Source: Actinomycetes bacterium
Lineage (GTDB): Bacteria > Actinomycetota > Acidimicrobiia > Acidimicrobiales > Palsa-688
Assembly: GCA_021838445.1 (NCBI GenBank)
Contig: JAKCDU010000002.1
Location: forward strand, 62,001-126,000
Length of the DNA: 64,000 bases
Direction: 5' to 3'
Part shown: positions 9,930 through 27,343 of the stretch, piece after piece
How the letters are laid out: each line of letters begins with the position of its first letter
Position numbering within the stretch: position 1 is the first letter of the stretch
The notes under the pieces: model-generated
What the model saw: the letters and a program-made list of their open reading frames with translations, nothing else
What the model was told of the DNA's origin: nothing
Database searches by the model: none
Position numbers and translations under genes: made by a program

Positions 9930-9990
9930 CTCACTCCTATTCGCTCCGCCCGGCGCCGGCCGGTATTGGAACAGAGCGAGGCTACCCGCG

Positions 9991-9996: not shown

Positions 9997-10004
9997 AGAC
10001 AATC

Positions 10005-10459: not shown

Positions 10460-11278
10460 ATGCCTCACTCGCCGCGGCGGGTGCTGCCCTCGCACTGGTG
10501 GCGGGAGGTCCTCATAATCGCTGTCTTCTACGGCCTGTACACCCTCGTGCGCGACCTTCGCGGCGACAAGCCGGTGTCGGTCGACCAGGCGTTCACCAAC
10601 GCCAAGCGGATCATCCACCTGGAGCGGTGGGTCGGTCTGTTCCACGAACAGGATCTGCAGCACGCCCTGCTGAGCCAACGGTGGCTGATCCGCATCTGCG
10701 ACGACTACTACGGGACCGCCCACTTCGTCATCACCATCGGGGTGCTGGTCCTGCTCTTCTTCCGCTTCCCCTACCAGTACCGCTTCTGGCGCAACGTGCT
10801 GGCCCTCATGACCGGCCTGGCCCTGCTGGGCTTCTACTTCTTCCCCCTGATGCCACCCCGGCTCCTGCCGGCGGGGTACGGCTTCGTGGACACGCTGAAG
10901 GTGATCGGAGGCCTGTGGAACTTCACCAGCGGGCCGGTCAACGACGTCTCCAATCAGTACGCGGCCATGCCCAGCCTCCACACCGCCTGGGCCACTTGGT
11001 GCTCCTTCGCTCTCGCCTCGGTCATCCGCCCGCTGTGGGCCCGGGTCCTGATCTTTCTCTACCCCGTGTTCACCATCTTCGCCATCGTGGTGACCGCCAA
11101 CCACTTCTTCGCCGACGCCGCCGCCGGGCTGGCCCTGCTCGGCCTGTCCTTGGCTGTGGTCCATCCCGTCACCGCCGCTCTCGACCGCCAGGCGTGGCGG
11201 CGGGCCGTCCGCCACGAGCACGCCGGGTTGGCCACCAGGGGCACTCCCCTCGCCGGCAGGAGCAACCCCGCCCCGTGA
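10460..11278 (+). CDS. PAP2-superfamily membrane phosphatase/phosphotransferase
   Basis: A membrane protein of about 272 residues with five or six hydrophobic segments. The C-terminal half has the PAP2 signatures MPSLHTAW (catalytic His) and ANHFFADAAAG (H-x4-D), spaced as in inositol-phosphoceramide-synthase-like PAP2 proteins. It probably removes or transfers phosphate on a lipid phosphate or inositol lipid. ATG 10460 is chosen because it begins just before the first helix; upstream in-frame GTG/TTG codons are possible. Its TGA overlaps the GTG of the polyprenyl synthetase, so it may dephosphorylate an isoprenoid diphosphate from that enzyme; this link is inference. Confidence 0.82.
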   Translation: MPHSPRRVLPSHWWREVLIIAVFYGLYTLVRDLRGDKPVSVDQAFTNAKRIIHLERWVGLFHEQDLQHALLSQRWLIRICDDYYGTAHFVITIGVLVLLFFRFPYQYRFWRNVLALMTGLALLGFYFFPLMPPRLLPAGYGFVDTLKVIGGLWNFTSGPVNDVSNQYAAMPSLHTAWATWCSFALASVIRPLWARVLIFLYPVFTIFAIVVTANHFFADAAAGLALLGLSLAVVHPVTAALDRQAWRRAVRHEHAGLATRGTPLAGRSNPAP

Positions 11279-12333
11279 ACCTTCCTCCGCCCGTTCAGGC
11301 GGTGGCCGGGCCGGTCGAGGCCCGCCTGCGCCGATTGTTCGACCAAGAGGACGAGCGGTGGGCCGCCGTCGACCCCGATCTGGCCGCCCCCTTCGAGGCC
11401 CTCCGCTCCTACGTGCTGTCAGGGGGCAAGCGGCTGCGACCGGCCTTCTGCTTTTGGGCCTTCGTGGGCGCCGGTGGCTCGCCCGACGACCCCGCGGTAA
11501 TCGACGCCGGGGCCGCCATCGAGATGCTCCACACCGCGGCACTGATCCACGACGACATCATCGACGGGTCCCTGCGCCGCCACGGCGCCGACACCGTCCA
11601 CGTCCGCTTCGCGGGGATGCACGCCGGTCGGGGATGGTCGGGGACGTCGGCCCGTTTCGGGGAGGGAGCGGCCATCCTCATCGGCGACCTGTCCCTCATC
11701 TACAGCAGCCTCCTCCTGGCCGGGGCCCCCCCGGCGGCGGTGGCCACCTTCGAGGAGATGCGCCTCGAGGTCAACGTGGGCCAGTACCTCGACATCCTGG
11801 GCAGTGCTCAGGGCGTCAGCCGACCCGGCCTGGCGGCCGCCGACCGGGCCCGGCGGATCTGCCGCTTCAAGACGGCCAAGTACACCATCGAGCGGCCGCT
11901 CCACCTGGGCGCCGCCCTGGCCGCCCCCGAGCGGCTCGGCGAGTTGGCCGGTCCGCTGTCGGAGTTCGGGCTGCCCCTCGGTGAGGCCTTCCAACTCAAA
12001 GACGACCTGCTCGGGGTGTTCGGCGACCCTGGAGTAACCGGCAAGCCGGTGGGGGACGACCTGCGGGAGGGCAAACCGACCCTGCTGGCCGCTCTGACCG
12101 CCGATCGCGACCCGCGTTTCGCGACCCGGTTCGGGGCGGCCGATCTCGGCCCCGAAGACATCGCCGACCTGCAGGAGATGATCGTGGCCACCGGTGCCCG
12201 AGCCGAGGTGGAGCAGGCGGTCGACGAGCTCGTGGCCCGCTCCGAGACAGCGCTCGAGCGCCTCCCGCTGAAGGCCCCGGCCCTCACCGCTCTCGGTCTG
12301 GTAGCCCGCTACGTGGCCGGTCGCGACCGCTGA
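11275..12333 (+). CDS. Polyprenyl synthetase (geranylgeranyl diphosphate synthase-like)
   Basis: Condenses IPP onto allylic diphosphates to make a C15-C20 or longer isoprenoid diphosphate. The 352-residue product has the first Asp-rich motif DDIID (93-97) preceded by IEMLHTAALIH, the GGKRLRP IPP-binding segment (50-56), and the second motif KDDLLGVFGD (242-251). The second motif has Gly in place of the last Asp, which is usual in actinobacterial GGPP synthases. GTG 11275 overlaps the PAP2 stop (GTGA). It lies 71 bp before dxs, so precursor supply and chain elongation are adjacent. Chain length cannot be decided by eye. Confidence 0.92.
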   Translation: MNLPPPVQAVAGPVEARLRRLFDQEDERWAAVDPDLAAPFEALRSYVLSGGKRLRPAFCFWAFVGAGGSPDDPAVIDAGAAIEMLHTAALIHDDIIDGSLRRHGADTVHVRFAGMHAGRGWSGTSARFGEGAAILIGDLSLIYSSLLLAGAPPAAVATFEEMRLEVNVGQYLDILGSAQGVSRPGLAAADRARRICRFKTAKYTIERPLHLGAALAAPERLGELAGPLSEFGLPLGEAFQLKDDLLGVFGDPGVTGKPVGDDLREGKPTLLAALTADRDPRFATRFGAADLGPEDIADLQEMIVATGARAEVEQAVDELVARSETALERLPLKAPALTALGLVARYVAGRDR

Positions 12334-12404: not shown

Positions 12405-14285
12405 ATGCTTTTGGAGTCGATCGGCTCGCCGACGGACCTCGCTCGGCTGGACCACGACGAGCTCGACACTCTCGCCGCCGAGATACGGGCCTTCATCGTC
12501 AACGCGGTGGCGGTCAACGGAGGGCACCTGGGCTCCAACCTGGGGGCCGTCGAGCTGACCATCGCCGTGCACCGGGTGTTCTCCTCGCCGCGTGACATCC
12601 TCCTGTGGGACACCGGCCACCAGGCTTACGGCCACAAGCTGCTGACCGGCCGGCAGGACATGTTCTCCTCGCTGCGCCAAGGCGGCGGGCTGTCGGGCTA
12701 CCCGTCGCGGGCCGAGTCGGTCCATGACTGGGTGGAGAACAGCCACGCCTCTACCATCCTGAGCTACGCCCACGGCATGGCCGCTGCGCTGGCTCGCAGC
12801 GCCAGCCCCGACCGCCGGGTGGTGGCGGTCATCGGCGACGGCGCCCTCACCGGGGGCATGGCCTTCGAGGGTCTCAACAATCTCGGCCACAGCGGCAGCC
12901 GGGTCGTCATCGTCCTCAACGACAACGGTCGCTCCTACGCGCCGACCGTGTCGCGCCTGTCGGAGAGTCTCACCAAGCTACGGCTCCACCCCGGGCTGAC
13001 CTCGGTACGGTCGCGGATCGAGGAGCGCCTGCGGGAACTGCCCGGCGTCGGCAGTCTCGCCTACAGCAGCCTTCAGGGCCTGTACTCGGCGGTGCGCGAG
13101 GTCATCGAGCCGCCAGCGTTCTTCGAAGCGCTCGGCGTCCGCTACGTCGGTCCCATCGACGGGCACGACATCGCCGGTATGGAGATGGCCCTGGTCCAAG
13201 CGGCCGAGCACGAGGGCCCCATCGTCGTGCACGTGGTCACCCGCAAGGGGCGCGGCTACGCCCCCGCCGAGGACGACGACGAGCGCTGCCTCCACGACGC
13301 ACCGGTGTTCGACCCGGCGGTGGGTCCCGGCGACGATCCCCACGCCCTGAAGGGCTACACCCAGGCGTTCAACGAGGCCATGTTGGCGGCCGGGGAGCGC
13401 CACCCCAATCTGGTGGCCATCACCGCGGCCATGCCGGGTCCCACCGGTCTCCTGCCCTTTGCCACCCGCTGGCCCGACCGCTTCTTCGACGTCGGCATCG
13501 CCGAGCAGACGGCGGTCACCTCGGCCGCGGGCATGGCCATGGGCGGGTTGCGACCGGTCGTGGCGGTCTACTCCACGTTCTTCTCGCGGGCTTTCGACCA
13601 GGCCAACATGGACGTGGGGTTGCACGGCCAGCCCGTGGTGTTCGCCTTGGACCGGGCCGGCATCACCGGTCCCGACGGGGCCAGCCACCACGGCGTGCTG
13701 GACATGGCGCTCAGCCTGCGCATCCCCGGGATGAGCGTCTTCGCCCCCTCGTCGGCCCAGGAGCTGTCGGTGATGCTCGACACCGCCTTGGAGATGAGCG
13801 GCCCATCGGTGATCCGCTACCCCCGGGGGGCGGCCCGCCAGGTCGGCCCCGATCAGGTCGGCTCGGGCCTGAGCGCCCGCCTCCTGCGCCACAGCGACCG
13901 CGACACGGTGTGCATCCTGGCCGTGGGCAAGATGCTCGAAGCCGCCGAGGAGGCGGTGGACATCCTCGCCGCCGACGACATCGACGCCACCCTGTGGGAC
14001 GTGCGGGTCGTCCGCCCTCTCGACCCGCGGATGGTCGCCGACGCCGGCCGCCACGCCTTGGTGGTGACCGTCGAGGACGGCATCCGATCCGGAGGAGCCG
14101 GGTCATTCATCGCTGACGCCGTCGCCGACCTGCAGGAGACCAGGATCGCCCCCCCGTTCCTCATCCTCGGGGTGCCCACCGCCTACATCCCACACGGGGC
14201 CCAGGAGCAGATCCTCTCCCAGTTGGGCCTCGACGGCCCAGGCGTGGCCGCCGCCGTGGCCAAGGCTCTCCCCCGCCCGGCATGA
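12405..14285 (+). CDS. dxs: 1-deoxy-D-xylulose-5-phosphate synthase
   Basis: The first enzyme of the MEP isoprenoid pathway: a thiamine-diphosphate enzyme joining pyruvate and glyceraldehyde-3-phosphate. The 626-residue length is standard. Visible are the N-terminal NGGHLGSNLG with His41, the ThDP motif GDGALTGGMAFEGLNN (about 144-159), the FDVGIAEQ segment carrying the catalytic Glu of the pyrimidine domain, and the C-terminal transketolase domain (EDG..SGGAGS). The following gene overlaps its stop by 4 bp. A second dxs-like copy is not in the window. Confidence 0.97.
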   Translation: MLLESIGSPTDLARLDHDELDTLAAEIRAFIVNAVAVNGGHLGSNLGAVELTIAVHRVFSSPRDILLWDTGHQAYGHKLLTGRQDMFSSLRQGGGLSGYPSRAESVHDWVENSHASTILSYAHGMAAALARSASPDRRVVAVIGDGALTGGMAFEGLNNLGHSGSRVVIVLNDNGRSYAPTVSRLSESLTKLRLHPGLTSVRSRIEERLRELPGVGSLAYSSLQGLYSAVREVIEPPAFFEALGVRYVGPIDGHDIAGMEMALVQAAEHEGPIVVHVVTRKGRGYAPAEDDDERCLHDAPVFDPAVGPGDDPHALKGYTQAFNEAMLAAGERHPNLVAITAAMPGPTGLLPFATRWPDRFFDVGIAEQTAVTSAAGMAMGGLRPVVAVYSTFFSRAFDQANMDVGLHGQPVVFALDRAGITGPDGASHHGVLDMALSLRIPGMSVFAPSSAQELSVMLDTALEMSGPSVIRYPRGAARQVGPDQVGSGLSARLLRHSDRDTVCILAVGKMLEAAEEAVDILAADDIDATLWDVRVVRPLDPRMVADAGRHALVVTVEDGIRSGGAGSFIADAVADLQETRIAPPFLILGVPTAYIPHGAQEQILSQLGLDGPGVAAAVAKALPRPA

Positions 14286-15796: not shown

Positions 15797-17548
15797 ATGG
15801 TTCTCGTCTCCCCTGCCCCCTCGCCGCGGGTGCTCTGGCTGCGCCGGCGCGCTGACTCGATCGGCCCCTCAGCTCTGACGTTGATCCTGGCGTCCACCGT
15901 CTTGGTGCTCGGCTGGGCCGGCGTGGACCAGGCGGCCCAGACCTACCGCACGCTCCAGTACCAGCTGCATGGTTTCATGCTGTGGGACAGCGGCTGGTAC
16001 GCCGGCAACTTCCCGCTGGGCTACAGCGTCCTGTTCCCGGTGGTCGCCGGTACGTTCGGGATCAAGATCGTGGCCGTGGCCTCGGCGGTCATCGCCACGT
16101 GGTCGTTCGACCGGGTGATACGCACGTACTTCGGTTCCCGCCCCCTCGGCACCTGGTACTTCGCCATCTCCATGCTCCTTCCGGTGACGATCGGCCAGTG
16201 GCCGTTCCTCGCCGGCGAAGCGGCAGGCCTTCTGTCCCTGCTCAGCCTGCAGAAGGGGCGGCGGTCCCTCGCCTTGGCCATGGGGGTCCTCTCAGCGCTC
16301 TTCTCGCCTCTCGCCGCCGCCTTCCTGGCCATGGGCTATCTGGCCTGGGCGGCCTACTCCAACCGGCGCTGGTGGATGGTGGCCACGGCGGCGGTCAGCC
16401 TCATCGTGGTCCTGGTCCTCGGCGTGCTGTTCCCCGGCACCGGCCCCTTCCCGTTCCCCTGGACCGGACTGGTGCCGACCGAGTTGCTGTGCCTGAGCGT
16501 CATGACCCCCCTGGTAAGGACCACCCCGGCGGTGCGCCTCGGTGCGCTGTTCTACGCGTCGTCGTCGCTGTTCTCCTTCATCGTACCCAACCCTCTGGGA
16601 GGTAACGCCCCCCGCCTGGCAGCCTCGGTGGGGATCCCGCTCCTGGCTTGCTTCCTCACCGTCCCCGGTCCGGCCGACGATCGGGTCTCCCTATCGGGTC
16701 TGCTCCAGCGCAGCACCGACAAGACCCGTTGGCGGCGCTGGACGCTGCCCGACCGTTGGCGCTACGCCGCCGTGCTGCTCGTCGTGCCTTTCGCGGTGTG
16801 GCAGTGGGCCCCCTGGGACGGCGTGGTCACCTCGCCGCAGGCCGCCCGCTACACCCAGGCCTCGTTCTACCAGCCCCTCCTGGCCACCCTCGCAGCGCAG
16901 TCCGCCAACCCGGTCCGGGTGGAGATACCGCCCACCAGCGATCACTGGGAGTCGGCCTTCGTGGCGCCCTACGTTTCGTTGGCCCGGGGTTGGGAGCGTC
17001 AGCTCGACATCGTCGACAATCCGCTGTTCTACACGAAGGCGGCGCTGGCCGGCACCCTGCATGCGGCGGCCTACACCTCCTGGCTGGACGCCGAGGGGAT
17101 CAGCTACGTGGCGCTGCCCTCGGCCCCTCTCGACTACGCCGCCAGAGCCGAGGGCGCGCTGCTCGACTCCGGCCGGGTCCCGGGGCTGCGCCTGGTGTGG
17201 ACCAGTCCCGACTGGAAGCTGTGGCAGGTCGTGTCGAGCCCGGGGCTGGTCAGCGGGCCGGCCACCCTCACCGCCCTCGAACCCGACCACCTGACCCTGC
17301 AGGCCCGCGCCGCGGGAACCATTATCGTGCGGGTCCGCTGGACCAACTTCTGGTCGGTGACCACGGCCAACGCCTGCGTCTCGGCCTCTCCAGCCCCCGG
17401 GGCGCCCCCAGCGACGGAGGGGTCGGGCCTCGACCCGGCGGCGCCGCCCTACCAGTGGACGTCCGTAAAGGCCCTCACAGCCGGCACCATCAGCCTGTCG
17501 GCATCGGTGCTGCACCCGACGGCGCCGGCCTCCTGCCCGTCGTCGTGA
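15797..17548 (+). CDS. Polytopic membrane protein, GT-C-like, unknown function (paralog A)
   Basis: A 583-residue membrane protein with about ten hydrophobic segments in the first 350 residues, then an extracytoplasmic-looking C-terminal domain (from about 355, after QWAPWDGVVTSP) with ERQLDIVDN and WLDAEGISYVALPSAPLDYA. I do not recognise a named family. The layout (short N-tail, LWDSGWYAG after helix 1, WxFLAGE in a luminal loop) recalls GT-C lipid-sugar transferases, but the usual acidic catalytic pair is not obvious. A collinear paralog lies at 25032-26600. It is followed in the same direction by a lipoprotein gene after 103 bp. Confidence 0.8.
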   Translation: MVLVSPAPSPRVLWLRRRADSIGPSALTLILASTVLVLGWAGVDQAAQTYRTLQYQLHGFMLWDSGWYAGNFPLGYSVLFPVVAGTFGIKIVAVASAVIATWSFDRVIRTYFGSRPLGTWYFAISMLLPVTIGQWPFLAGEAAGLLSLLSLQKGRRSLALAMGVLSALFSPLAAAFLAMGYLAWAAYSNRRWWMVATAAVSLIVVLVLGVLFPGTGPFPFPWTGLVPTELLCLSVMTPLVRTTPAVRLGALFYASSSLFSFIVPNPLGGNAPRLAASVGIPLLACFLTVPGPADDRVSLSGLLQRSTDKTRWRRWTLPDRWRYAAVLLVVPFAVWQWAPWDGVVTSPQAARYTQASFYQPLLATLAAQSANPVRVEIPPTSDHWESAFVAPYVSLARGWERQLDIVDNPLFYTKAALAGTLHAAAYTSWLDAEGISYVALPSAPLDYAARAEGALLDSGRVPGLRLVWTSPDWKLWQVVSSPGLVSGPATLTALEPDHLTLQARAAGTIIVRVRWTNFWSVTTANACVSASPAPGAPPATEGSGLDPAAPPYQWTSVKALTAGTISLSASVLHPTAPASCPSS

Positions 17549-17651
17549 GCTAGCGGGTCCGGCCGCGACCTCCCCGAATTCTCCCGCCTCGGCCGCCTGC
17601 AACACCCCGCCGGCCAGCCGACGGACGGCCGGCCGGAACCGGGCCCGCCGC

Positions 17652-19115
17652 GTGGCGGTCGTCGCCCTGGTCGCGATACTCGGTGGCTGCACCACCACCG
17701 CCGGGCCGCCCGCCGGCGCGGGAAGTGCGGTCAGCAGCCCACCCGGCCCTTCGCTGACCACCGGGGCCGCTCCCACCACTTCCGGCCAGCGACCAACCGA
17801 CCCGCCAGCCGTCACCATGTCGGACTCGTGGACCACCTACCAGGCCGATCCCCAGCGGCTCGGCGTGGCCCCCACCCAGCCTCCGCTGGCGCCATTGCAC
17901 CTGGCCTGGTCCGCTTCCCTCGACGGCACAGCAGTGTACGGCCAGCCGCTGTACGCCTCGGGGCTGGTGCTGGTGGCCACCGAGGGCGACGACGTCTACG
18001 CCCTCGATCCCCGCCGCGGCACGGTGGTCTGGAAGGACACCATCGGGGTGCCGCTCCACCACACCGCCTCCTACGCCGGCTGCGGGGACATCGATCCTCT
18101 GGGGGTGACCAGCACGCCGGTGGTCGACCCCCGAGCCGGGGTGCTCTACGCCGTTGGCGAGGTCAGCCAGGGCGGAGCTCCACCGGTCAGCCACGTGCTG
18201 GTGGCCATCGACGTGGCCAGCGGACAGATCCTCGAGAGGGTGGCGGTGGACCCGCCTCTACCCGCCGGGGAGAGCACCATCCACCTGCTCCAGCGGGCCG
18301 CTCTGGCTCTCGGTAACGGCCGGGTGTACGTGGGCTACGGTGGCCAGGCCGGCGACTGCGGCCGCTACCACGGATGGCTGGTCTCGCTCCCGGTGGTCGG
18401 AAGCCCGTCGGGCGGCCCCGAGACGGCCTTCGACGTCACCCCCGACAGCACCGGCGGCGCCATCTGGGAGGGCGGCAGCGGGCCGGCGATCAGCACCGAC
18501 GGCGGGGTCTACCTCACCACCGGCAACCCCAACTCGGGCGGCCCCTCGCCGTGGGCCGAGGCGGTCGTGGAGCTTCCCCCCCTCCTGGGCGCCACCCCCG
18601 AGGCGGTCTTCCAGGACAGGTCTGCGTCGGGTGATCTGGACCTGGCGACGGGCGGCCCGGAACTGCTGCCCGACGGCACCGTCTTCGCCGCTGGCAAGAC
18701 CGAGATCGGCTACCGGCTGCGTCAGTCCGACCTCAGCCCGCTCGGTCCTGTCCGGGGTCGGGTGTGCGATAGCGATCCCGACGGCGGTGCCGCCTACGAC
18801 GGCGGTCTCGCCAGCCTGTTCCTGCCGTGCAACCGGGGCGGTCTGCAGCAGATCGAGCTGGCCGCAGGCCGTGTCGGATGGCGGGCCGGATCGGTCGACT
18901 CGACCCCGGTGCTGGTGAACGGGGCACTTTGGGCCCTGTCCTACCCGGCGGGGATCATCGAGGAGCTCGACCCCGCCACCGGCCGGACCCTCTACCGGTC
19001 GAAGGTGGGCCGCAAAGTTCCCACTTTCGCCTCGCTGAGCGCCGCCGACGGCCTCCTGCTGGTACCGACCCTCAACGGCGCCGCCGCTTTCTCCGGCCCG
19101 CAGGGCCCGGCCTGA
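17652..19115 (+). CDS. Secreted beta-propeller (PQQ-repeat-like) lipoprotein
   Basis: A 487-residue lipoprotein. The N-terminus is a short hydrophobic stretch ending in a lipobox, AILGGC (Cys13), followed by a Ser/Thr/Pro linker to about residue 55. The rest is a beta-propeller with PQQ-like blades: VYGQPLYASGLVLVATEGDDVYALDPRRGTVVW-type repeats with Ala-Leu-Asp-x3-Gly turns. Such proteins scaffold envelope complexes or dehydrogenases; no PQQ-binding residues are evident. GTG 17652 is the first possible start after the previous stop in this frame, though it leaves few positive charges in the signal. The stop codon lies inside a 29-bp tandem repeat. Confidence 0.85.
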   Translation: MAVVALVAILGGCTTTAGPPAGAGSAVSSPPGPSLTTGAAPTTSGQRPTDPPAVTMSDSWTTYQADPQRLGVAPTQPPLAPLHLAWSASLDGTAVYGQPLYASGLVLVATEGDDVYALDPRRGTVVWKDTIGVPLHHTASYAGCGDIDPLGVTSTPVVDPRAGVLYAVGEVSQGGAPPVSHVLVAIDVASGQILERVAVDPPLPAGESTIHLLQRAALALGNGRVYVGYGGQAGDCGRYHGWLVSLPVVGSPSGGPETAFDVTPDSTGGAIWEGGSGPAISTDGGVYLTTGNPNSGGPSPWAEAVVELPPLLGATPEAVFQDRSASGDLDLATGGPELLPDGTVFAAGKTEIGYRLRQSDLSPLGPVRGRVCDSDPDGGAAYDGGLASLFLPCNRGGLQQIELAAGRVGWRAGSVDSTPVLVNGALWALSYPAGIIEELDPATGRTLYRSKVGRKVPTFASLSAADGLLLVPTLNGAAAFSGPQGPA

Positions 19116-19198
19116 CCGGGACAGAGCGGCAGGGCCCGGCCTGACCGGGACAGAGCGGCAGGGCCCGGCCTGACCGGGACAGAGCGGCAGGGCCCGGG
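19101..19198 (+). repeat. 29-bp tandem repeat, three perfect copies plus a partial
   Basis: Units 19101-19129, 19130-19158 and 19159-19187 are identical, and a fourth is truncated after about 11 bp. The stop of the lipoprotein gene is in unit 1. The array fills the gap to the convergent histidine kinase gene. Confidence 0.95.
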
Positions 19199-19218
19199 CG
19201 GGCAGGCGGGATCGGCGG

Positions 19219-20655
19219 TCAGCCGACCGGTGCCGGATGGGGATGGGGATGGGGAGCGGGCGCCGTCAGGCTGGGCGTCGCGGCGGCGATCGCGGGTAGC
19301 CGCAGCACGAACTCGGCACCCTCCCCGACCACCCCGCCGGCCCGGATGGTCCCCCCGTAGAAGCGGCTCAGGTCAGCCACTATGGCCAGTCCCAGGCCGA
19401 ACCCGCCCTCCCCCCGGTCCCGGGCCGAGTCGAGGCGCACGAAACGCTCGAAGATGCGTTCCCGGTCCGCTTCGGCCACGCCCGGGCCGTCGTCGGAGAC
19501 GGTCACCTGGGCGTAGGCCAACCCGTCCTCGACGACGGGCCCGACCTTGACGGTGAGGGCGCTCTCGGCGAAACGCCGCCCATTGTCCACCAGGTTGGCC
19601 ACCATGCGCTCGGCGTAGACGGGGGGCACCCCCACCAGGACCGGGCTCGCCTCCAGGACGACCGTTGGGCCGGTCGGGGCGGCATCGGCGACGATCCGCT
19701 CGACGAGGGCGGCCAGGTCGGTGGGTTCCTTGCTGGCGATGAGCGAGCCCTCATCGGAGCGGGCCAGGAGCAGCAGACCCGAGACCAGCTCCTCCATGCG
19801 GCGGTTCTGCTCGAGGACCTCCCCCGCCACCTCGATCCAGTCGGTCACCGCCGGATGGTGCATGGCCACCTCCAGCTCGGTGCGGATGTTGGCGATCGGG
19901 GACCGCAGCTCGTGGGAGGCGTCGGACACGAAGCGGCGTTCCCGACGCGACGACGCTTCGAGTCGGTCGAGCATGGAGTTGAGCGTGCGGGCCAGCCGGG
20001 CGATCTCGTCCTCGTTGGCCGGCTCGGCCACCCGGTAGCTGTACCCGTCGCGAGTCGAGACCGACATCCCGGCCACCTGTCGCCGCATCCGCTCGATGGG
20101 ACTCAGCGACCGTCCCACGACGACCCAGCAGATGACTCCCACCACTCCGAGCAGCATCGGGGTGCCGATCTCGAGCAGGCGCTGTATGTCAGCCACGGTG
20201 TGATCGAACTGGGCCATGGACGAGATCACCACGACGTCGCCGACCGCCTTGCCTGCCTGCACCGGCACCGACACCATGACCGCGTCGCGCGCCGTGTCGG
20301 CGAAGAAGTCGGGTACGGGCTGGACTCTCGGCGCGCCGGGCTGCCAGAGCGGCGGCAGGTGGCGCAGGGGTTTGCTGGCCCCTACCACCCGACCCCCCAC
20401 GATCACCTGCAGGAACCCGCTGTCGATGGTGGCGCCGGAGGGCACGAAGACGGGGCTGGAGAGGGTCGGGTTGAACGCCACCACTTCCCGGGCGTCCTGC
20501 TCGGCGCTGTTGAGCAGGATCTTCTGCCGCTCGTGATGCAGGTCGAGCTGGATCACTCCCGCGGCCACGACCATGGCGCAGCCCACGGCGAGGAGGGCCG
20601 TAACGGTGATCCGGACCCGGACGCTCCCCACGAAGCGGGAGATGAGCCGCCTCAT
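19219..20655 (-). CDS. Two-component sensor histidine kinase
   Basis: A 478-residue membrane kinase: TM1 about 14-34, an extracytoplasmic sensor of about 125 residues, TM2 about 163-181, HAMP about 183-235, then HisKA with phospho-acceptor His248 in SDASHELRSP and a HATPase domain (NLVDNGRRF N-box, DDGPGV G1, GFGLGLAI G2). The N-box has Gly-Arg where Ala-x is usual. The C-terminus ends in an unusual His-Pro alternation (HPHPHPAP) encoded by a GGGGAT microsatellite. Its ATG overlaps the stop of the response regulator gene, forming an operon. The signal is unknown. Confidence 0.95.
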   Translation of the reverse strand: MRRLISRFVGSVRVRITVTALLAVGCAMVVAAGVIQLDLHHERQKILLNSAEQDAREVVAFNPTLSSPVFVPSGATIDSGFLQVIVGGRVVGASKPLRHLPPLWQPGAPRVQPVPDFFADTARDAVMVSVPVQAGKAVGDVVVISSMAQFDHTVADIQRLLEIGTPMLLGVVGVICWVVVGRSLSPIERMRRQVAGMSVSTRDGYSYRVAEPANEDEIARLARTLNSMLDRLEASSRRERRFVSDASHELRSPIANIRTELEVAMHHPAVTDWIEVAGEVLEQNRRMEELVSGLLLLARSDEGSLIASKEPTDLAALVERIVADAAPTGPTVVLEASPVLVGVPPVYAERMVANLVDNGRRFAESALTVKVGPVVEDGLAYAQVTVSDDGPGVAEADRERIFERFVRLDSARDRGEGGFGLGLAIVADLSRFYGGTIRAGGVVGEGAEFVLRLPAIAAATPSLTAPAPHPHPHPAPVG

Positions 20656-21332
20656 CCGACCGGCACCTCGACGAGGCGGTAACCCTGGCTGCGCACGGTC
20701 TCGACGTGGGAGGGCTTTCCGGGCTGGTCCAGCTTCCGACGGACGTAGCCGACGTAGACCTCCACCACGTTGGGGTCCCGGTCGGCTGCCGGGTCCCAGA
20801 CGTGGTCGAGCAGCTCGGCTTTGGACACGTTCCGGTCGGTGCAGTGCAGCAGGTACACCAAGAGGGCCAGCTCGCGGCGGGTCAGGGACACCTCCTCGCC
20901 GGCCCGCCAGCAGCGGTGGTTGGCCGTGTCCAAGCGCAGGTCGCCATACTCGAACACGGCGCCGGCCGGGGCTCCGCCCCGCCGGATGAGGGCTCTCAGA
21001 CGGGCCAGTAGCACCGGGTAGGAGAACGGCTTGGACAAGAAGTCGTCGGCGCCGCAGTCGAGGGCCTCGGTTTGATCGTCCTCGTCCTGCTTGGCGGTCA
21101 GCATCAGCACCGGGACGTTCGCGCCCGCGGCCCGCAGCTTGGACACCACCTCGTAGCCGCTCAGGCGGGGCAGCATGAGGTCGAGGATGATGGCGTCGTA
21201 GTTGCCGCTCAAGCTCCGCTCGAGCCCGGTCTCCCCGTCGGCGGCCACTTCCACGCCGTAGCCCTCGGCCTGCAGCCCCCGCTCGAGCGAGCGGGCCATG
21301 GCCGCCTCGTCCTCCACGACAAGTATTCGCAC
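20652..21332 (-). CDS. OmpR/PhoB-family response regulator
   Basis: The DNA-binding partner of the adjacent kinase, about 226 residues. The receiver domain (1-115) has the acidic pocket Glu7-Asp8, phospho-acceptor Asp51 in ILDLMLPRLSGYE, Thr79 in MLTAK and Lys101 in FLSKPF. A winged-helix domain follows (about 125-222, with LTRRELALLVYLL and VEVYVGYVRRKL). Two consecutive GTG codons (21335, 21332) can start it; the second puts RILVVEDE at the usual position, with GGGGGTG just upstream. The gene is divergent from a serine hydrolase gene. Confidence 0.95.
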   Translation of the reverse strand: MRILVVEDEAAMARSLERGLQAEGYGVEVAADGETGLERSLSGNYDAIILDLMLPRLSGYEVVSKLRAAGANVPVLMLTAKQDEDDQTEALDCGADDFLSKPFSYPVLLARLRALIRRGGAPAGAVFEYGDLRLDTANHRCWRAGEEVSLTRRELALLVYLLHCTDRNVSKAELLDHVWDPAADRDPNVVEVYVGYVRRKLDQPGKPSHVETVRSQGYRLVEVPVG

Positions 21333-21380
21333 CACCCCCAGTCTGTCGCGCCGGTGACGTGATCGCCGTCCGCCCCGCTC

Positions 21381-21386
21381 TACAGT
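21381..21386 (+). promoter_or_regulatory. Leaderless -10 box for the serine hydrolase
   Basis: TACAGT, exactly 6 nt before ATG 21393. Confidence 0.5.
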
Positions 21387-21392
21387 TCTCGG

Positions 21393-22628
21393 ATGGGGGA
21401 TCTCAGTATCGATACCGAACCGGCCGAAGTGGGTCTCGACCCGTCCCGCTTGGCCCGCATCGACCGGCACTTCGCTACCTACGTGGACGACGGTCGCCTA
21501 CCGGGCTGGTTGATAGTGCTGGCCCGTCGCGGCCGGGTGGCCCACGTCGGGTCCAACGGCTGGCGTGACCGTGAGGGGAACCGGCCGGTCACCACCGACA
21601 CCCTCTGGAGGCTGGCTTCGATGACCAAGCCGGTGACCTCAGTGGCCGCGCTCATGCTCTACGAGGAGGGCGCCTTCGAGCTCAAGGATCCCATCTCCCG
21701 CTGGCTGCCGGAGTTCGCCGAGGCGCGGGTCTACGAGTCGGGCGGGTCGGCGAATCCGACCACCCGGCCGGTCGAGGAGCCCATCCGGGTTTGGCATCTG
21801 CTCACCCACACCGCCGGCCTCACCTACGGCTTCCACCACTCCCACCCGGTGGACGCCATGTACCGGGCGGCGGGCTTCGAGTGGGGCACCCCGCCGGGGG
21901 CCGACCTGGCCCGCTGCTGCGAACTTTGGGCTGAGCAGCCGCTGCTGTTCGAGCCGGGACGCGAATGGAACTACTCGGTGGCCACCGACGTCCTCGGCCG
22001 GCTCGTGGAGGTGGTCTCCGGCGAGACCCTGGAGCAGTTCTTTCGCTCACGGGTGCTCGGACCGCTCGGCATGCACGACACCGGCTTCTGGGTGACCGAG
22101 GACCGCGCCGAGCGGCTGGCCGCCGCCTACGCCGCCAACCCGGCCGGCCGCTCCGCGCCGGCGGTGCCCTTCGACGGGAGCGGCGCGCTGTCTCCGCCTT
22201 CGAGCCTCTCAGGCGGCGGTGGCCTGATCGGGCCGGCCGGCGATTACCTGCGCTTCGCCGAGATGCTCCGCCGGGGCGGCGCGCTCGACGGGGTGCGGCT
22301 GCTGTCGCCCCGCACCGTCGCCTACATGACCGCCAACCACCTACCCGGCGGCGTGGACCTGGAGCAGTTCGGCCGGCCGCTGTTCGCCGAAACCACTTTC
22401 GACGGTGTCGGGTTCGGCCTCGGGGTGTCGGTGGTGACCGATCCGGTCAAGGGCAAGGTGTTGAGCCGGGCTGGGGAATTCGGCTGGGGCGGGGCCTTCA
22501 GCACGTTCTTCTTCGTCTCGCCGGCTGAGGACCTGACGGTGGCGCTGTTCACTCAGCTGCTGCCCTCGAGCACCCACCCCATCCGCAGCGAGCTCAAACA
22601 GCTGGCCTACCAGGCCATCGTCGACTGA
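21393..22628 (+). CDS. Serine hydrolase, class C beta-lactamase / EstB-like family
   Basis: A 411-residue hydrolase of the penicillin-binding-protein-like fold. The nucleophile motif is SMTK (Ser76, Lys79) and the second motif is Tyr194-Ser195-Val196 in EWNYSVATD. The third-motif region is GWGGAFSTFF, with Trp-Gly-Gly rather than Lys-Thr-Gly, which favours an esterase or peptidase role (EstB-like) over resistance. There is no signal peptide, so it is cytosolic. It is divergent from the two-component operon and may be a target of it; that is inference. Confidence 0.88.
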   Translation: MGDLSIDTEPAEVGLDPSRLARIDRHFATYVDDGRLPGWLIVLARRGRVAHVGSNGWRDREGNRPVTTDTLWRLASMTKPVTSVAALMLYEEGAFELKDPISRWLPEFAEARVYESGGSANPTTRPVEEPIRVWHLLTHTAGLTYGFHHSHPVDAMYRAAGFEWGTPPGADLARCCELWAEQPLLFEPGREWNYSVATDVLGRLVEVVSGETLEQFFRSRVLGPLGMHDTGFWVTEDRAERLAAAYAANPAGRSAPAVPFDGSGALSPPSSLSGGGGLIGPAGDYLRFAEMLRRGGALDGVRLLSPRTVAYMTANHLPGGVDLEQFGRPLFAETTFDGVGFGLGVSVVTDPVKGKVLSRAGEFGWGGAFSTFFFVSPAEDLTVALFTQLLPSSTHPIRSELKQLAYQAIVD

Positions 22629-22640
22629 GCGGGCCTCGCC

Positions 22641-22665
22641 GCCCGTCGCCGGGCCGGCGACGGGC
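22641..22665. terminator. Hairpin between convergent genes
   Basis: A perfect 10-bp stem GCCCGTCGCC / GGCGACGGGC with a 5-nt loop, in the gap between the serine hydrolase and the convergent membrane protein. It has no T-tract, common in high-GC genomes. Confidence 0.6.
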
Positions 22666-22674
22666 CGGGGGGCG

Positions 22675-23322
22675 TCAGACGACGGGGGTCGCGATACGCG
22701 GCACGGGCCGGCAGCCGGCGCACGCGCTGGCGACGAGCCCGGCGGCGCGGGCCCGGCAGATGAGCAGCGATATCATCGCTCCCGACCCGCTCCACAACCA
22801 CCCGGTGAGGGTGTGAGCCCCGAGGAACACCGACATCGGGGTCATCATGAGCAGCACCAGCGTGGTCGCCCCGCTGCCCAGATAGACCACCGTCCACACG
22901 ATGGACAGGGTCCGGGTGAGCGAGCGCCGGGCGGCCAACCCGTCGGCGGCGGTGGGCACCAGGTCGCGGGCCAGGCGCACGACGAGCGGCTCGCCGGTGA
23001 ACATGGTGGCGAGGAACATCAGCCCGAACCCGGCCGTCTCGGCCACGGGTATGGCGAAGTACACGAAAGGATGCCCCGAGAGGATGGCGGCGAGCCCCCG
23101 CAGGGTGGCCATGAACACCGTGATGAGCAGCATGCCCGACACCCGGTGATTACGGAAATGCTGGTAGATGGCAACGGTGTAGGCGTAGACGACCGACAGG
23201 CCGATGGCCCAGGTGATGGTGCCGGCGGCCATAACGACGTAGAACAGCAGCAGCGGGATGAGAGTCGCCACCAACAGAGCAGGTATGGCTCCCCGCACGA
23301 GATTCAACGCCGACCGCCACAC
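22675..23322 (-). CDS. VC0807-like/DUF3159-like polytopic membrane protein
   Basis: A protein of about 215 residues with five or six hydrophobic segments (AIPALLVATLIPLLLFYVV, then ITWAIGLSVVYAY and others). The YFAIPVAETAGFGLMFLATM segment with its buried Glu, and the order of helices, resemble VC0807-type proteins of unknown function. The frame stays open far upstream into the divergent GT39 gene; GTG 23322 is the first start inside this gene's own territory. It ends in a Cys-x-Cys-like tail (ACAGCRP). Confidence 0.7.
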   Translation of the reverse strand: MWRSALNLVRGAIPALLVATLIPLLLFYVVMAAGTITWAIGLSVVYAYTVAIYQHFRNHRVSGMLLITVFMATLRGLAAILSGHPFVYFAIPVAETAGFGLMFLATMFTGEPLVVRLARDLVPTAADGLAARRSLTRTLSIVWTVVYLGSGATTLVLLMMTPMSVFLGAHTLTGWLWSGSGAMISLLICRARAAGLVASACAGCRPVPRIATPVV

Positions 23323-23385
23323 AGATCTCTTGTCGGTGCCCCCGGGCGTTTCCTTGACGACCCCTAACCGCCTGCCGGCAACGGT

Positions 23386-23391
23386 TAGCCT
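23386..23391 (+). promoter_or_regulatory. Leaderless -10 box for the GT39 gene
   Basis: TAGCCT, exactly 6 nt before GTG 23398. Confidence 0.5.
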
Positions 23392-23397
23392 GCTTGG

Positions 23398-25032
23398 GTG
23401 CCCCCCAATACCCACGGGGAAGGCGGTGCGGTGACCACCGCCCCGGCGACCACTGGTGAGTGGCTGCTCCCCCGGTTCGCCGGGTACCGCCGGCCCCGGG
23501 TGCTCCAAGCCGATCGCGCCCTGGTCGCCGCTTTCGTCGCGCTGGCGGCCGTCCTGCGGGTGCCGAACCTGGGCCGGGCCTACTGGATCGACGAGGGGAT
23601 AAGCATCGGGATCGCGTCCCACCCCCTGACCCAACTGCCCCGCCTGCTGCGCCAGGACGGATCTCCGCCGCTCTTCTACGTCCTGCTTCACTTCTGGCTC
23701 GAGACCGTGGGCCGCTCCGAAGTGGCGACCCACCTACTTCCCCTGATGGTCTCGCTGCTCACCATTCCGGCAGGCTACTGGGCCGCCACCGAGCTTTTCG
23801 ATCGGCGGGCCGGGCTGGCAGCCGCCGGCCTACTGGCCACCAACCCGTTCCTCAACTGGTACTCCACCGAGACGCGCATGTACACGCTGGTGGTCCTGCT
23901 GGTACTGATCGGGGTGACCTTCGCCTGGAGGGCCCAGCGTGACCGGAATGCGGCCGACGCCGCCAAGGCGGTGATTGCCTACGCCGCGCTCATGTACACC
24001 CATGACTGGGGCATCTACCTGGTCGGCGCCACCGCCTTGGTCCTGTTCCTGGTGACCTGGCGGCGCGGCGACCGGACGGCCTCTCTGTGGGTGGCGGGCG
24101 GCGGCTTGGCGGTAGCGGTCCTGTGGCTCCCGTGGCTCCCCTCGTTCCTCTTCCAGGCCGGCCACACGGCGGCACCGTGGGCCGTCCGGCCGGGGATCGG
24201 TGACATCTTCGCCGACCCCGCCTCGGTGCTCGGCGGCACCCTGGGTTTCTTGGTGGCGCCGGCCCTGGCCATCGGTTCGTACCTGTGCTGGAGCAAGCTG
24301 GCGCCGGGCACCCGCCAAACGGCGGGGGCCATGGCCTGGATGGCCCTGGCGGCCACCGTGGCGGGGTACATCGGCGCGCTGATCGAGCCGTCGTGGACGG
24401 CCCGCTACCTGGCGGTGATCGTGGCGCCGTATCTGCTGGCCGCGGCCGGGGCCCTGTCGACGACGTTGAGGGGCCGGGTGGTGCTGGCCTCGGTGGGGTC
24501 GGGGCTGGCTCTGTGGTCGATCGTCGGCAGTCTGCTACCCAACCCCAACGGGCGCTACGCCAAGGACAATATGGCGGCCATCGCCGGTGCCGCCCGCCCC
24601 TACCTGGCCTCCGGCGACATGGTGGTGGTCGACCAGACCGAGCAACTCGCCGTCGCCCGCCACTACCTGCCCGGGGACCTCCAGTACCTGACGCCTTCGG
24701 GACCCGTCGCTGATCCGACCGTGGTGGACTGGCGCAACCTGGTGCAGCGGCTACAGCAGGCGACGCCCTGCGAGGCCATAGGCCCCACCTTGCGGTCGCT
24801 GGCCATCGGGTCGAGCGTCCTCGAGATCCTTCCCGCCCGCAAGCTCGGAGCCTCGGGGTCGGCATGGTCCAAAGCGGTCACCGGCCAGGTCCTCGCCGTC
24901 GACGGCTTCTTGAGCCGCGACCCCAGCCTGCGGATCGTGGCGCTGTTCAGGCAGGGCCTGCACCCCCAGCCCTACGCCCCGGTAGAGGGAGTCCTCTACC
25001 AGAAGACGGCGCGGACGCCTCCCTGCACCTGA
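23398..25032 (+). CDS. GT39-family (ArnT/PMT-like) membrane glycosyltransferase
   Basis: A 544-residue GT-C enzyme with about eleven hydrophobic segments. The first luminal loop carries YWIDEG (Asp65, Glu66), the catalytic acid pair of the family. It is followed by RQDGSPPLFYVLLHFW and a STETRMYTL segment typical of PF13231 proteins. Such enzymes move a sugar from a polyprenyl-phosphate carrier to a lipid or protein outside the membrane; donor and acceptor are unknown. GTG 23398 is backed by the -10 box; GTG 23431 with GGAAGG upstream is an alternative. Its TGA overlaps by 1 nt the ATG of the next membrane protein, so they are cotranslated. Confidence 0.88.
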   Translation: MPPNTHGEGGAVTTAPATTGEWLLPRFAGYRRPRVLQADRALVAAFVALAAVLRVPNLGRAYWIDEGISIGIASHPLTQLPRLLRQDGSPPLFYVLLHFWLETVGRSEVATHLLPLMVSLLTIPAGYWAATELFDRRAGLAAAGLLATNPFLNWYSTETRMYTLVVLLVLIGVTFAWRAQRDRNAADAAKAVIAYAALMYTHDWGIYLVGATALVLFLVTWRRGDRTASLWVAGGGLAVAVLWLPWLPSFLFQAGHTAAPWAVRPGIGDIFADPASVLGGTLGFLVAPALAIGSYLCWSKLAPGTRQTAGAMAWMALAATVAGYIGALIEPSWTARYLAVIVAPYLLAAAGALSTTLRGRVVLASVGSGLALWSIVGSLLPNPNGRYAKDNMAAIAGAARPYLASGDMVVVDQTEQLAVARHYLPGDLQYLTPSGPVADPTVVDWRNLVQRLQQATPCEAIGPTLRSLAIGSSVLEILPARKLGASGSAWSKAVTGQVLAVDGFLSRDPSLRIVALFRQGLHPQPYAPVEGVLYQKTARTPPCT

Positions 25033-26600
25033 TGGCGGCCGCGCTGCTGGCCGCCGCCGTGGTCACCCTCGGCCGCCTCCTCGGCTGGCAGGGCGTGGAC
25101 ATGGCCGCCCAGGTGTACCGGGTGGACAGCCTGCGCCGCAACGGCTTCACGCTGTGGGATTTCGGCTGGTACGGGGGGCACTGGACCCTCGACTACAGCC
25201 TGCTGTACCCGCCGCTGGCCCGGTGGCTCGGCATCACCGCGACCACCGTCGCGTCGGCGGCGCTGGCCGCGTTGGCCTTCGACCGCCTGGCGCGCCGCCA
25301 CCTCGGGGAGGGGGCGGCGGTGGCTTCGCTGGTGTTCGCCGCGGGGACCCTCGTGTCGGCCTCCATCGGCCAGTTGACCTTCCTCGGCGGCGAGGCTTTC
25401 GGCCTCGGTGCGGTCTGGGCCCTGTCGGGTCGCCGGCGATCCCTGGCCGTGCTGCTGGCCCTGGGCGCCACCCTGACCAGCCCGCTCACCGGCGCGTTCG
25501 TGGCTCTCGCCGGCGCTGCGTGGGCCCTCGACCGGGGGTGGGAGCGCGACCGGGCCGGATGGTGGGGGGTGGCGGTGGCCGCGGCCGCGGCGGTACCGGT
25601 GCTCGTCGCCGCGGTGGTCTTCCCCGGCGACGGGCCCATGCCGTACCCGGCCGTCGACTGGCTGTGGGAGATGACCGTGGCCGCCGTCGTGGTCGCCTTG
25701 GCCGGCCGCCGATGGCGCCCGCTCAGCATCGGCGGCCTGCTGTACATGGCCACTACCACCGTCTCCTTCGCCGTCCCGAGCGCTCTGGGCGGCAACGTGG
25801 GGCGTCTCGAGGACATGGTCGCGCTGCCCGTCGCGCTGGCCCTGGCCTGGTCGCGCCGTCGGCTCCTGGCGCCGGTGGCGGCGCTGCCCCTGGCCCTCTC
25901 ACAGTGGGCTCCGGCCTGGGGTGCCTTCGCCGTCGCCCCCACCGCCGCCGCCGCCCACCGGTCCTTCTACGACCCGCTGGTCCAGGTCCTCGCCGCCCGG
26001 GCGGCGACCGGACCACCCGGGCGGGTCGAGGTGGTCCCCACGGCGTGGCACTGGGAAGCGGCATGGGTCGCTCCCGTCGTGCCACTGGCCCGGGGCTGGG
26101 AACGCCAGTTGGACGAGGCCGACAACCCGATCTTCTACCGGGCCGGCGCCCTCAACGGGGCGAGCTACCGGGCCTGGCTGATCGCCAACGGCGTCCGCTT
26201 CGTGGCCCTGCCGGCGGCGCCCCTCGACATGGCCGGGCGCGCCGAAGGGCGGCTCGTGTCGGCGGGGCTGGTACCGGGCCTGCACCTGGTCTGGAGGACG
26301 CCGCAGTGGCAGCTGTACTTGGTGGCGGGAAGCCCGGGCATCGTGTCCGGCCCGGCCGAGCTCGTATCCACCAGTGCAGCCCGGATCCAGGTGGACGTGC
26401 GGGCGGCGGGGATCGTGGCGGTGCGGGTCCGCTGGACCCCGGACTGGTATGTGGCGTCGGGGTCGGGGTGCGTGTCGGGCCGCGGCGGGTGGATCGATCT
26501 GCACGCCTCCCGACCGGGGCCGGTCAGCCTCGAGCTGTCCCCCCTCCATCCCGGTCGCGGCGCCTGCCCGGGGCCGACGCTGACCGCCCGGCGCGGCTGA
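25032..26600 (+). CDS. Polytopic membrane protein, GT-C-like, unknown function (paralog B)
   Basis: A 522-residue collinear paralog of the protein at 15797-17548. Shared blocks include GVD-x-AAQ-x-YR after helix 1, LWD-x-GWY, a luminal FL-x-GEA, an FPG-x-GP-x-P segment, LGGN near helix 9, and the C-terminal LARGWERQLD, YxxWL, VALPxAPLD and PGLxLVW blocks. It is shorter at the N-terminus and C-terminus than paralog A. ATG 25032 overlaps the GT39 stop (TGATG). Coupling to GT39 suggests both act in one glycolipid or glycan export path; this is inference. Confidence 0.8.
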   Translation: MAAALLAAAVVTLGRLLGWQGVDMAAQVYRVDSLRRNGFTLWDFGWYGGHWTLDYSLLYPPLARWLGITATTVASAALAALAFDRLARRHLGEGAAVASLVFAAGTLVSASIGQLTFLGGEAFGLGAVWALSGRRRSLAVLLALGATLTSPLTGAFVALAGAAWALDRGWERDRAGWWGVAVAAAAAVPVLVAAVVFPGDGPMPYPAVDWLWEMTVAAVVVALAGRRWRPLSIGGLLYMATTTVSFAVPSALGGNVGRLEDMVALPVALALAWSRRRLLAPVAALPLALSQWAPAWGAFAVAPTAAAAHRSFYDPLVQVLAARAATGPPGRVEVVPTAWHWEAAWVAPVVPLARGWERQLDEADNPIFYRAGALNGASYRAWLIANGVRFVALPAAPLDMAGRAEGRLVSAGLVPGLHLVWRTPQWQLYLVAGSPGIVSGPAELVSTSAARIQVDVRAAGIVAVRVRWTPDWYVASGSGCVSGRGGWIDLHASRPGPVSLELSPLHPGRGACPGPTLTARRG

Positions 26601-26623: not shown

Positions 26624-27343
26624 ATGCGACCCCTCTCCTGCCTCGAGGTCACCAACTCGGCGCCGGGTTTCGCTCTCGACATTCTCGATCCCGCGACCAG
26701 GGCCCAGGTGGCGGCCCACCTGCTGCGCTGCGACGACTGCCGGCGGCGGGTCACCTCGATGCAGTCGGCGGCGGCGGAACTGCTCGACTTGAACCGCGGC
26801 GACGGTCCCCCCTCCGGCTGGCGGGCCGAGTCGTGGTCGGCCGGGTGGAGCGGCGATCCCCACGACCACTCCGATTGGGCCGCCCCCGAGGACGCCGACT
26901 GGCTGGAAGGCTCCGACGGGTCCACGCCGGCGCGGCGCCCGGTCCGGCGTCGCCTCCGTACGGTTCTGTCGGTAGCCGCCGCCGCTCTGCTCGTGGTCGG
27001 CACGACGCTCGGCCCCGAACTCGAGCAGGCGGCGTCGCATCCCGAGAACCCGACGGTGACCGTCCGGTTGATGGCCGCCGGCTCGGCGGTCGGCACCGTC
27101 GCCCTGTTCACCGGCGCGGTCGAGGCCATAGACGTGGCCGTCGAGGGCCTGTCGGAGTCTGGGACCATGGACATCCTGGTGGTCGACCGCTCCGGCACGG
27201 CCACTTCGGTCGGCCAGATCGAGGTGTCCCGAAGCCGCGGTGCCTGGCTCGGACACCCGCCGGTGCTCCTCGGCTCGCTGACCAGCCTGGTCCTCGTCGA
27301 CGACCAGCGCCGGGAGGTCGCCTCGGCCGCCCTGGCCACCTGA
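26624..27343 (+). CDS. Anti-sigma-factor-like zinc-finger membrane protein
   Basis: A 239-residue single-pass protein. The N-terminus has Cys6 and a His32-x3-Cys36-x2-Cys39 motif, as in zinc-containing anti-sigma domains. A Trp/Asp-rich linker follows, then a transmembrane helix (about 114-130) and an extracytoplasmic beta-rich domain. This layout is that of anti-ECF-sigma factors, but no sigma factor gene is adjacent. ATG 26624 has GAGG 6 nt upstream and lies 23 bp after paralog B, so it is probably the last gene of the GT39-paralog B operon. Confidence 0.7.
   Translation: MRPLSCLEVTNSAPGFALDILDPATRAQVAAHLLRCDDCRRRVTSMQSAAAELLDLNRGDGPPSGWRAESWSAGWSGDPHDHSDWAAPEDADWLEGSDGSTPARRPVRRRLRTVLSVAAAALLVVGTTLGPELEQAASHPENPTVTVRLMAAGSAVGTVALFTGAVEAIDVAVEGLSESGTMDILVVDRSGTATSVGQIEVSRSRGAWLGHPPVLLGSLTSLVLVDDQRREVASAALAT

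Follow-up and report, generated by a model that had tools for sequence, protein, structure and literature searches.

A stretch of 64,000 nucleotides from an Actinomycetes bacterium of the order Acidimicrobiales (GCA_021838445.1, contig JAKCDU010000002.1, positions 62,001 to 126,000; hereafter the window) encodes two related polytopic membrane proteins, A and B. Our analysis suggests that both are probably diverged copies of one family of integral-membrane glycosyltransferases with a GT-C fold, which would transfer a sugar from a polyprenyl phosphate onto a membrane-anchored glycan at the outer face of the membrane. This reading follows from homology to GT-C families in combination with an invariant aspartate of the catalytic type and with neighbouring genes for carrier lipids and lipid-linked glycans. 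The original prediction, made from the sequence letters alone, had left the family unnamed and recommended profile-profile comparison, structure prediction for a GT-C fold and gene neighbourhood analysis; a confident match to a family other than glycosyltransferases was to count against it, and no such match was obtained.

Both reading frames are real, lie where they had been predicted and show GC content by codon position of the coding type. The two proteins are collinear across almost their full length, with 222 of 554 aligned columns identical (40%; BLASTP, 301 bits, E 1e-99), and the two motifs pointed out earlier were found again: LARGWERQLD is common to A and B, and the second loop reads VALPSAPLD in A and VALPAAPLD in B. 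When the host genome was queried with A, the only matches were A itself and two pieces of B. In a tree of 46 members, the root of which was placed for drawing only, the A clade comprises 20 rows, every one from the taxonomic family of the window (f1, hereafter the host family), and the B clade 14 rows, including other families and a record titled Solirubrobacterales. As the A clade is confined to the host family whereas the B clade spans others, the duplication appears to be old rather than a recent tandem copy. On sequence evidence, A and B are thus old paralogues of one family.

For comparison with known GT-C families we used a computed profile of 67 members, composed of a set of 46 (A2), from which fragments covering fewer than 400 profile positions and the copy of A in G026 (a duplicate of L005) were left out, and a set of 21 (A4). 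Its best match, at 98.1% (E 1.1e-13, 151 columns), was to 10 proteins from loci of PTPS_related (PF10131) in the same class. In this alignment Asp44 of A stands opposite the Asp of a GGD motif and the A segment WAGVDQAAQTYR...WDSGWYAG opposite PTGGDMGAHV...WSNDWYAG, which gives the shared pattern G-x-D...A-H/Q...W-Y-x-G. The 10 proteins (from 10 of 17 loci) had been picked and trimmed by the G-x-D motif containing the aligned Asp; a control without motif filter or trimming gave 97.6% (E 2.9e-12) for the 8 loci above the Pfam cut-off and 98.1% (E 1.2e-13) for all 17 loci. Each sub-profile alone also matched PF10131 (A2 97.1%, A4 98.0%). Over the same loop, and again with its Asp in register, AftD proteins were matched at 80.3% (E 1.4e-5, 168 columns); the match to YfhO proteins (89.3%, E 2.1e-6) was limited to 73 columns of the C-terminal domain. 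These two sets were drawn from 9 of 13 and 12 of 15 loci, respectively, their reading frames having been chosen by hydrophobicity and in some cases truncated where the locus ended, and all profile E-values apply to single comparisons. Seven control profiles (the PMT_2 neighbour of B, GT87-PAP2, PAP2, a major facilitator superfamily (MFS) transporter, an AI-2E permease, a kinase and a symporter) reached 0.1-0.7%, and 10 column-shuffled profiles and one reversed profile at most 0.4%. The recommended profile comparison therefore reaches GT-C families, and the family is, as far as sequence profiles can tell, a remote relative of GT-C glycosyltransferases through the catalytic-Asp loop and the C-terminus.

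The pattern of conserved residues is in line with this relationship. Asp44 occurs in all 65 readable members, two further rows being gapped there and cut by contig ends. Gly268 is found in 67 of 67 members and Asn270 and Arg273 in 66 each; Arg397-Gly398-Trp399, Gln402 and Glu452 are present throughout (67/67), Glu376 in 65 (His in the other two), His383 in 60 and Glu385 in 61. According to passages of two publications, GT-C proteins have 7-13 transmembrane helices around a GT-C core (PMC11127046), and the first juxtamembrane helix of GT-CA enzymes bears an essential catalytic Asp at its tip (PMC12041299). Averaged hydropathy of the family yielded 11 runs above 1.0, or 9 once neighbours were merged, a count within that range. 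In our low-confidence models, the matches to GT-C structures described below agree with a GT-C core, and Asp44 takes the expected place behind the first transmembrane helix: it follows helix 10-37 and directly precedes helix 45-58 in the model of A, a region modelled with low confidence. A conserved Arg in front of transmembrane helix 10 is mentioned as a further GT-C feature (PMC7801869, in part); the place of the well-kept Arg273 relative to that helix depends on an insecure helix numbering in the models.

AlphaFold models of A and B, which were built from the same five sequences and are hence not independent, were compared with solved structures. For A, 43 of the 50 best rows are GT-C proteins (Z 11.5-5.4), namely AglB, oligosaccharyltransferase (OST), PMT, PIG-U, glycosylphosphatidylinositol (GPI) mannosyltransferase I, ALG3/6/9, ArnT, PglB, AftD, AftA, AftB, EmbB/C and DPY19. 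For B the number is 37 of 50, ranks 1-36 being all GT-C (Z 10.0 to 6.6) with PimE at the end of this run, and the first unrelated row has a Z of 6.0. The translocon entries 9n9j, 8b6l and 6ftg were counted here as OST catalytic chains by inference. Mostly helical models can reach Z values up to 13-14 through a common helix arrangement, as the tool itself warns; the structural evidence carries weight because nearly all rows belong to one superfamily. Taken alone, residues 352-479 of A resemble the C-terminal domain of AglB (3vu0; Z 8.2, root-mean-square deviation 3.2, 114 residues aligned), and residues 436-504 of B resemble beta domains found in glycoside hydrolases, among them pullulanase, GH164 mannosidase and alpha-amylase (Z 5.2-5.7). 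The structure prediction recommended for a GT-C fold is thus dominated by GT-C proteins for both paralogues, at low model confidence.

In the window (Table 1), A lies 3' of a block of genes for PAP2_3, a polyprenyl synthetase and 1-deoxy-D-xylulose-5-phosphate synthase (DXS), which is absent from the earlier description; the interval between this block and A encodes an MDMPI protein and, divergently, an SRAP protein. The PMT_2-type gene ends with a TGA (25030-25032) whose last base is also the first of the B start codon (ATG, 25032-25034). Both neighbours named in the original prediction, a GT39 glycosyltransferase coupled to one paralogue and a beta-propeller lipoprotein following the other, were recovered as this PMT_2-type protein upstream of B and the PQQ_2 protein after A.

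Table 1 Paralogues A and B and genes in their neighbourhood, with positions in the window.
Feature	Positions	Strand	Remarks
PAP2_3 (PF14378) membrane lipid phosphatase/phosphotransferase	10460..11278	+	272 amino acids
Polyprenyl synthetase (PF00348)	11281..12333	+	350 amino acids as translated
DXS	12405..14285	+	626 amino acids
Paralogue A	15797..17548	+	583 amino acids; transmembrane module, Asp44 loop after helix 1, central alpha/beta domain (HWE, RGWERQLD), all-beta C-terminal domain
PQQ_2 beta-propeller protein downstream of A	17652..19115	+	Lipobox-like N-terminus
Small membrane protein	22687..23325	-	Divergent from the PMT_2 gene, conserved there
PMT_2-type (GT39-like) GT-C protein directly upstream of B	23398..25032	+	544 amino acids; PF13231, 36.6 bits (cut-off 26.1)
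Paralogue B	25032..26600	+	522 amino acids; architecture as in A; one-base overlap of its ATG with the stop codon of the PMT_2 gene
Anti-sigma-factor-like protein (zf-HC2) downstream of B	26627..27343	+	

To compare neighbourhoods across genomes, we took neighbour counts from tblastn and genome-wide family searches, because the codon-position caller used for gene calls misses genes (it missed PAP2_3 and the polyprenyl synthetase of the window). Within the host family, tblastn found DXS on the stretch of the A-type gene in ten genomes (the window, L004, L005, L060, L061, L065, L066, L067, L069 and L072) and no DXS in L063, L071 and L074 despite several kb on either side; the remaining A-type stretches are short or end nearby. 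In the distant family f32, DXS accompanies the family gene in all three loci: it is adjacent in L089, follows polyprenyl synthetase and the family gene on one strand in L093, and in L094 both DXS and polyprenyl synthetase lie 5-6 kb away. The B gene lies directly 3' of the PMT_2 gene in nine of the ten host-family genomes with a B copy that we examined (the window, L005/L078, L060, L063, L064, L068, L070, L072 and L077), the exception being G030, whose second copy lies outside the tree. G003 and G004 have the PMT_2 gene, and no B was seen in them.

Lipid-glycan genes also adjoin family members in other lineages. Six of nine stretches from the families f100 and f92 (L143, L144, L145, L147, L148 and L149; not L146, L150 and L152) hold the family gene together with PAP2_3, a CDP-alcohol phosphatidyltransferase and a protein combining GT4 and PHP domains, and five of the six (not L143) also hold an inositol-phosphate synthase. 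Among the matches listed, PAP2_3 lies within 300 bp of the family gene in at least 12 of 36 positive genomes, compared with 0.16 expected from a crude count in which genes are placed at random and related genomes are taken to be independent, which makes the P value too small. This adjacency occurs in four families (f100, f92, f84 and f89), and 7 of the 36 genomes have an inositol-phosphate synthase gene no more than 3 kb from the family gene. In Streptomyces-like stretches the family gene adjoins a D-Ala-D-Ala carboxypeptidase (L138, L140 and L142), and L137 has neither this neighbour nor the GT87-PAP2_3 protein described below. The recommended neighbourhood analysis thus places genes for carrier lipids and lipid-linked glycans beside family members.

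From these results we infer the activity, donor, acceptor and residue roles as follows. A monosaccharide linked to polyprenyl phosphate would be made on the inner face of the membrane and flipped by other proteins, after which A or B would bind it in a groove within the membrane. Catalysis would involve Asp44 at the tip of juxtamembrane helix 1. The conserved GxNxxR segment with Arg273 may hold the lipid phosphate, and the soluble domain with HWE and RGWxRQxD may help to place the acceptor, the roles given here to Arg273 and to these two segments being conjecture. On the outer face, a glycan or glycolipid anchored in the membrane would then receive the sugar. The surface glycan of the original prediction is compatible with this evidence and is itself a prediction. 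Since both paralogues have long been retained, they probably form different linkages or use different acceptors.

An inositol lipid as acceptor is suggested only by lineages other than that of the window. Going further, it is conceivable, albeit doubtful, that the family represents an undescribed GT-C group which in several actinobacterial lineages glycosylates glycans anchored to inositol phospholipids outside mycobacteria. The operon of inositol-phosphate synthase, CDP-alcohol phosphatidyltransferase, PAP2_3 and GT4 would then constitute a second, non-mycobacterial route to phosphatidylinositol-anchored lipoglycans, with A and B as duplicated elongation enzymes in the host family.

Several results weigh against a GT-C glycosyltransferase. 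Among the 67 members, no GT-C model of Pfam scored better than E 0.85 (Glucos_trans_II, one member), none reached the gathering cut-offs of PTPS_related PF10131, AftD PF11847, YfhO PF09586 or the GT39/PMT models PF13231 and PF02366, and the GT-C models of NCBIfam matched none of the 46 A2 members. Direct profile comparison gave no match to the neighbouring PMT_2 protein (11 sequences, 0.7%) or to GT87-PAP2 (2 sequences), both of them GT-C, and the profile control sets are small, with 2 to 14 sequences each. The quality of the AlphaFold models is poor (mean pLDDT 54.0 and 56.6, pTM 0.43 and 0.45, the Asp44 loop below 50), and Foldseek returned nothing with an E below 0.001 for either. The window genes scanned include no recognisable synthase of polyprenyl-phosphate sugars and, apart from an MFS gene after B, no transporter; neither was the object of a targeted search. 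Finally, a GT-C fold is no proof of activity: PIG-U, which is among the structural matches of both A and B, is called an enzymatically inactive GT-C protein in a passage of PMC7801869.

The latter observation raises the alternative that A and B are GT-C-fold proteins without catalysis, acting as scaffold or substrate-binding subunits like PIG-U in GPI transamidase, with the coupled PMT_2 protein as the catalytic partner of B. Such a partnership would fit the gene order: in nine of the ten host-family genomes examined, B directly follows the gene of another GT-C protein, and in the window the stop and start codons of the two share one base. The Asp after helix 1 in every readable member and the near-invariant Arg273 are, however, unlike a scaffold, and neither the B-type loci outside the host family nor the other stretches fetched from there gave a match to that PMT_2 protein. 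We therefore consider such a non-catalytic role unlikely. An activity like that of STT3, AglB and PglB, in which a whole lipid-linked glycan is moved to a protein or polymer, seems improbable to us: OST, AglB and PglB chains are among the best structural matches and the AglB-like part of A points the same way, but the matching profiles are those of PTPS_related, AftD and YfhO (no direct STT3 profile comparison was made), no STT3 family matched in Pfam (67 members) or NCBIfam (A2), and single-sugar enzymes such as ArnT lie within 1 Z unit. As for the 'lipid-linked sugar transferases or flippases' of the original prediction, the transferase half is favoured by the GT-C profile homology, the GT-C model matches, the invariant Asp and the neighbourhood, while flippases of lipid-linked sugars are very improbable, as nothing beyond polytopy and nearby glycan genes speaks for them and they are opposed by the GT-C-like fold, the invariant loop Asp, the lack of any match to a known flippase family and the 0.1% of the MFS control profile.

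Comparison with characterised systems places the glycosyltransferase reading among known chemistry. PTPS_related belongs to the GT-C clan CL0111 and is listed with function unknown in a passage of PMC7801869. The two groups differ in that no member of our family has a hit to the Pfam model with an E of 1 or less, and the match to the 10 PF10131 frames (712-940 amino acids) is confined to the N-terminal part. The AftD family (PF11847, GT-C_AftD), which includes a mycobacterial arabinofuranosyltransferase, resembles A and B in the Asp loop and in structural rows (6w98, 6wby and 6wbx); it differs in length, most PF11847 frames found having 1294-1484 amino acids, and the window genome has separate PF11847 genes on other contigs (G000:C104:11639-12613 and G000:C61:4-1260). 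These two matches are perhaps one split gene and suggest further arabinan- or lipoglycan-like chemistry in this organism, whose inositol-phosphate synthase is also on another contig. For YfhO (PF09586), a teichoic-acid glycosyltransferase, the likeness is restricted to the C-terminal columns, there is no Pfam match, and teichoic acid is not indicated for the A/B family. YfhO is thought to move N-acetylglucosamine (GlcNAc) from C55-P-GlcNAc onto lipoteichoic acid, a membrane-anchored polymer (PMC7389260, in part), a reaction that would correspond to the job proposed here. The mycobacterial lipoglycan enzymes PimE, MptA-C, EmbC and AftB are described, in a passage of PMC3485146, as using polyprenyl-phosphate sugar donors and extending phosphatidylinositol mannosides (PIM) and lipomannan (LM). 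Structural rows for AftB and EmbB were obtained with both models, for EmbC with A and for PimE with B, and family genes lie inside an inositol-lipid operon in one lineage; the absence of a direct profile match to the GT87-PAP2 pair sets the family apart. By analogy, YfhO or the PIM/LM-extending enzymes may offer the closest working model.

The superfamily and its chemistry are thus already known. The family itself has no matching model in the copies of Pfam and NCBIfam that we searched; as GT136 and the full CAZy set lay outside that comparison, an existing CAZy family might cover it. Lipoglycans and glycans of the cell wall are built by GT-C enzymes, those of mycobacteria being regarded as potential drug targets in the abstract of PMC3123699. 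Should its members indeed be transferases, the family would account for a so far unassigned step in the synthesis of envelope glycans in several lineages of actinobacteria, with the operon containing inositol-lipid genes pointing directly to a candidate acceptor. A predicted GT-C structure together with an assay recently served to establish the GT-C family GT136 (PMC11127046, in part).

With regard to distribution, a two-row model matched 25 of 32 genomes of the host family and 19 of 198 genomes of an order sample, and a 46-row model matched 37 of 396 genomes of a phylum sample; as 6 and 3 candidates were scored per genome in the order and phylum samples, respectively, these figures are minimum estimates. 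G103, one of the 37, matched only weakly (19.1 bits, 95 positions) and was dropped, so that the neighbourhood counts above use 36 genomes. The phylum positives include eleven g178 genomes of 6.1-9.9 Mb, five with two strong matches and one (G383) with one strong and one weak match. These genomes are probably Streptomyces, a label taken from the named Streptomyces and Embleya plasmid records in which relatives are present. The sole annotated record seen names a family member 'hypothetical protein'. One scan of viral contigs found no relative, and a two-sequence contig scan with narrow peptide patterns, which returned 3 loci, has no bearing on distribution.

In the family-model searches, A and B themselves had no Pfam match and nothing of note in NCBIfam, and sequences of solved structures gave best E-values of 0.35 (phmmer) and 0.96 (profile search), both to unrelated proteins. 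Known flippase and transporter families in Pfam and NCBIfam gave no match recurring in several members. The NCBIfam hits to phasin_PhaP7 (E 0.034, 14.2 bits against a cut-off of 200) and BagC_FevH (E 0.0016, one member) were taken as chance, as were stray transporter matches to the efflux pump SepA (E 0.00099, one of 21 A4 members), and, in single members, to the NCBIfam models of CrcB (E 0.038) and a permease subunit (E 0.45). Pfam matches of single members were scattered, and those to DUF7134 (E 7.4e-5), SepA and Glucos_trans_II, one member each, were not used. We also considered direct homology to GT87 or to the coupled PMT_2 protein, which profile comparison did not detect.

Some further features of the loci may be of interest. 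At the end of the inositol-lipid operon, L144:13648-15516 and its homologues encode a protein in which a GT4 glycosyltransferase is joined to a PHP phosphoesterase domain. PAP2_3 lies within about 3.1 kb of inositol-phosphate synthase in at least 16 of 36 genomes (e.g. L144:10958-13614 and L149:7049-11318), and in the five stretches showing all three genes the CDP-alcohol phosphatidyltransferase stands between them. There, PAP2_3 could act as the phosphatase converting phosphatidylinositol phosphate to phosphatidylinositol; the open-licence literature searched yielded nothing pertinent on phosphatidylinositol-phosphate synthase with PAP2. A GT87-PAP2_3 fusion protein is encoded end to end with the family gene in the Streptomyces-like stretches L139 (7349-9433; assigned by Pfam) and L141 (10759-12918), and nothing was found in the same literature on GT87 with PAP2 in Streptomyces or on uncharacterised Streptomyces GT-C enzymes. 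In five host-family genomes, a gene for a phosphodiester glycosidase (NAGPA, PF09992) adjoins the A-type gene (L063:8793-9914, assigned by Pfam, L065, L066, L067 and L069). The small membrane protein next to the PMT_2 gene has no Pfam match in its window copy, and its homologue in L063 matches IspA weakly (PF04279, 21.0 bits; cut-off 28.7). Elsewhere in the window, two adjoining genes on the reverse strand (7144-10208) presumably represent a TldD/TldE (PmbA) pair, which they resemble, and a protein of 781 amino acids (34362-36707, forward strand) resembles a fused CofG/CofH FO synthase.

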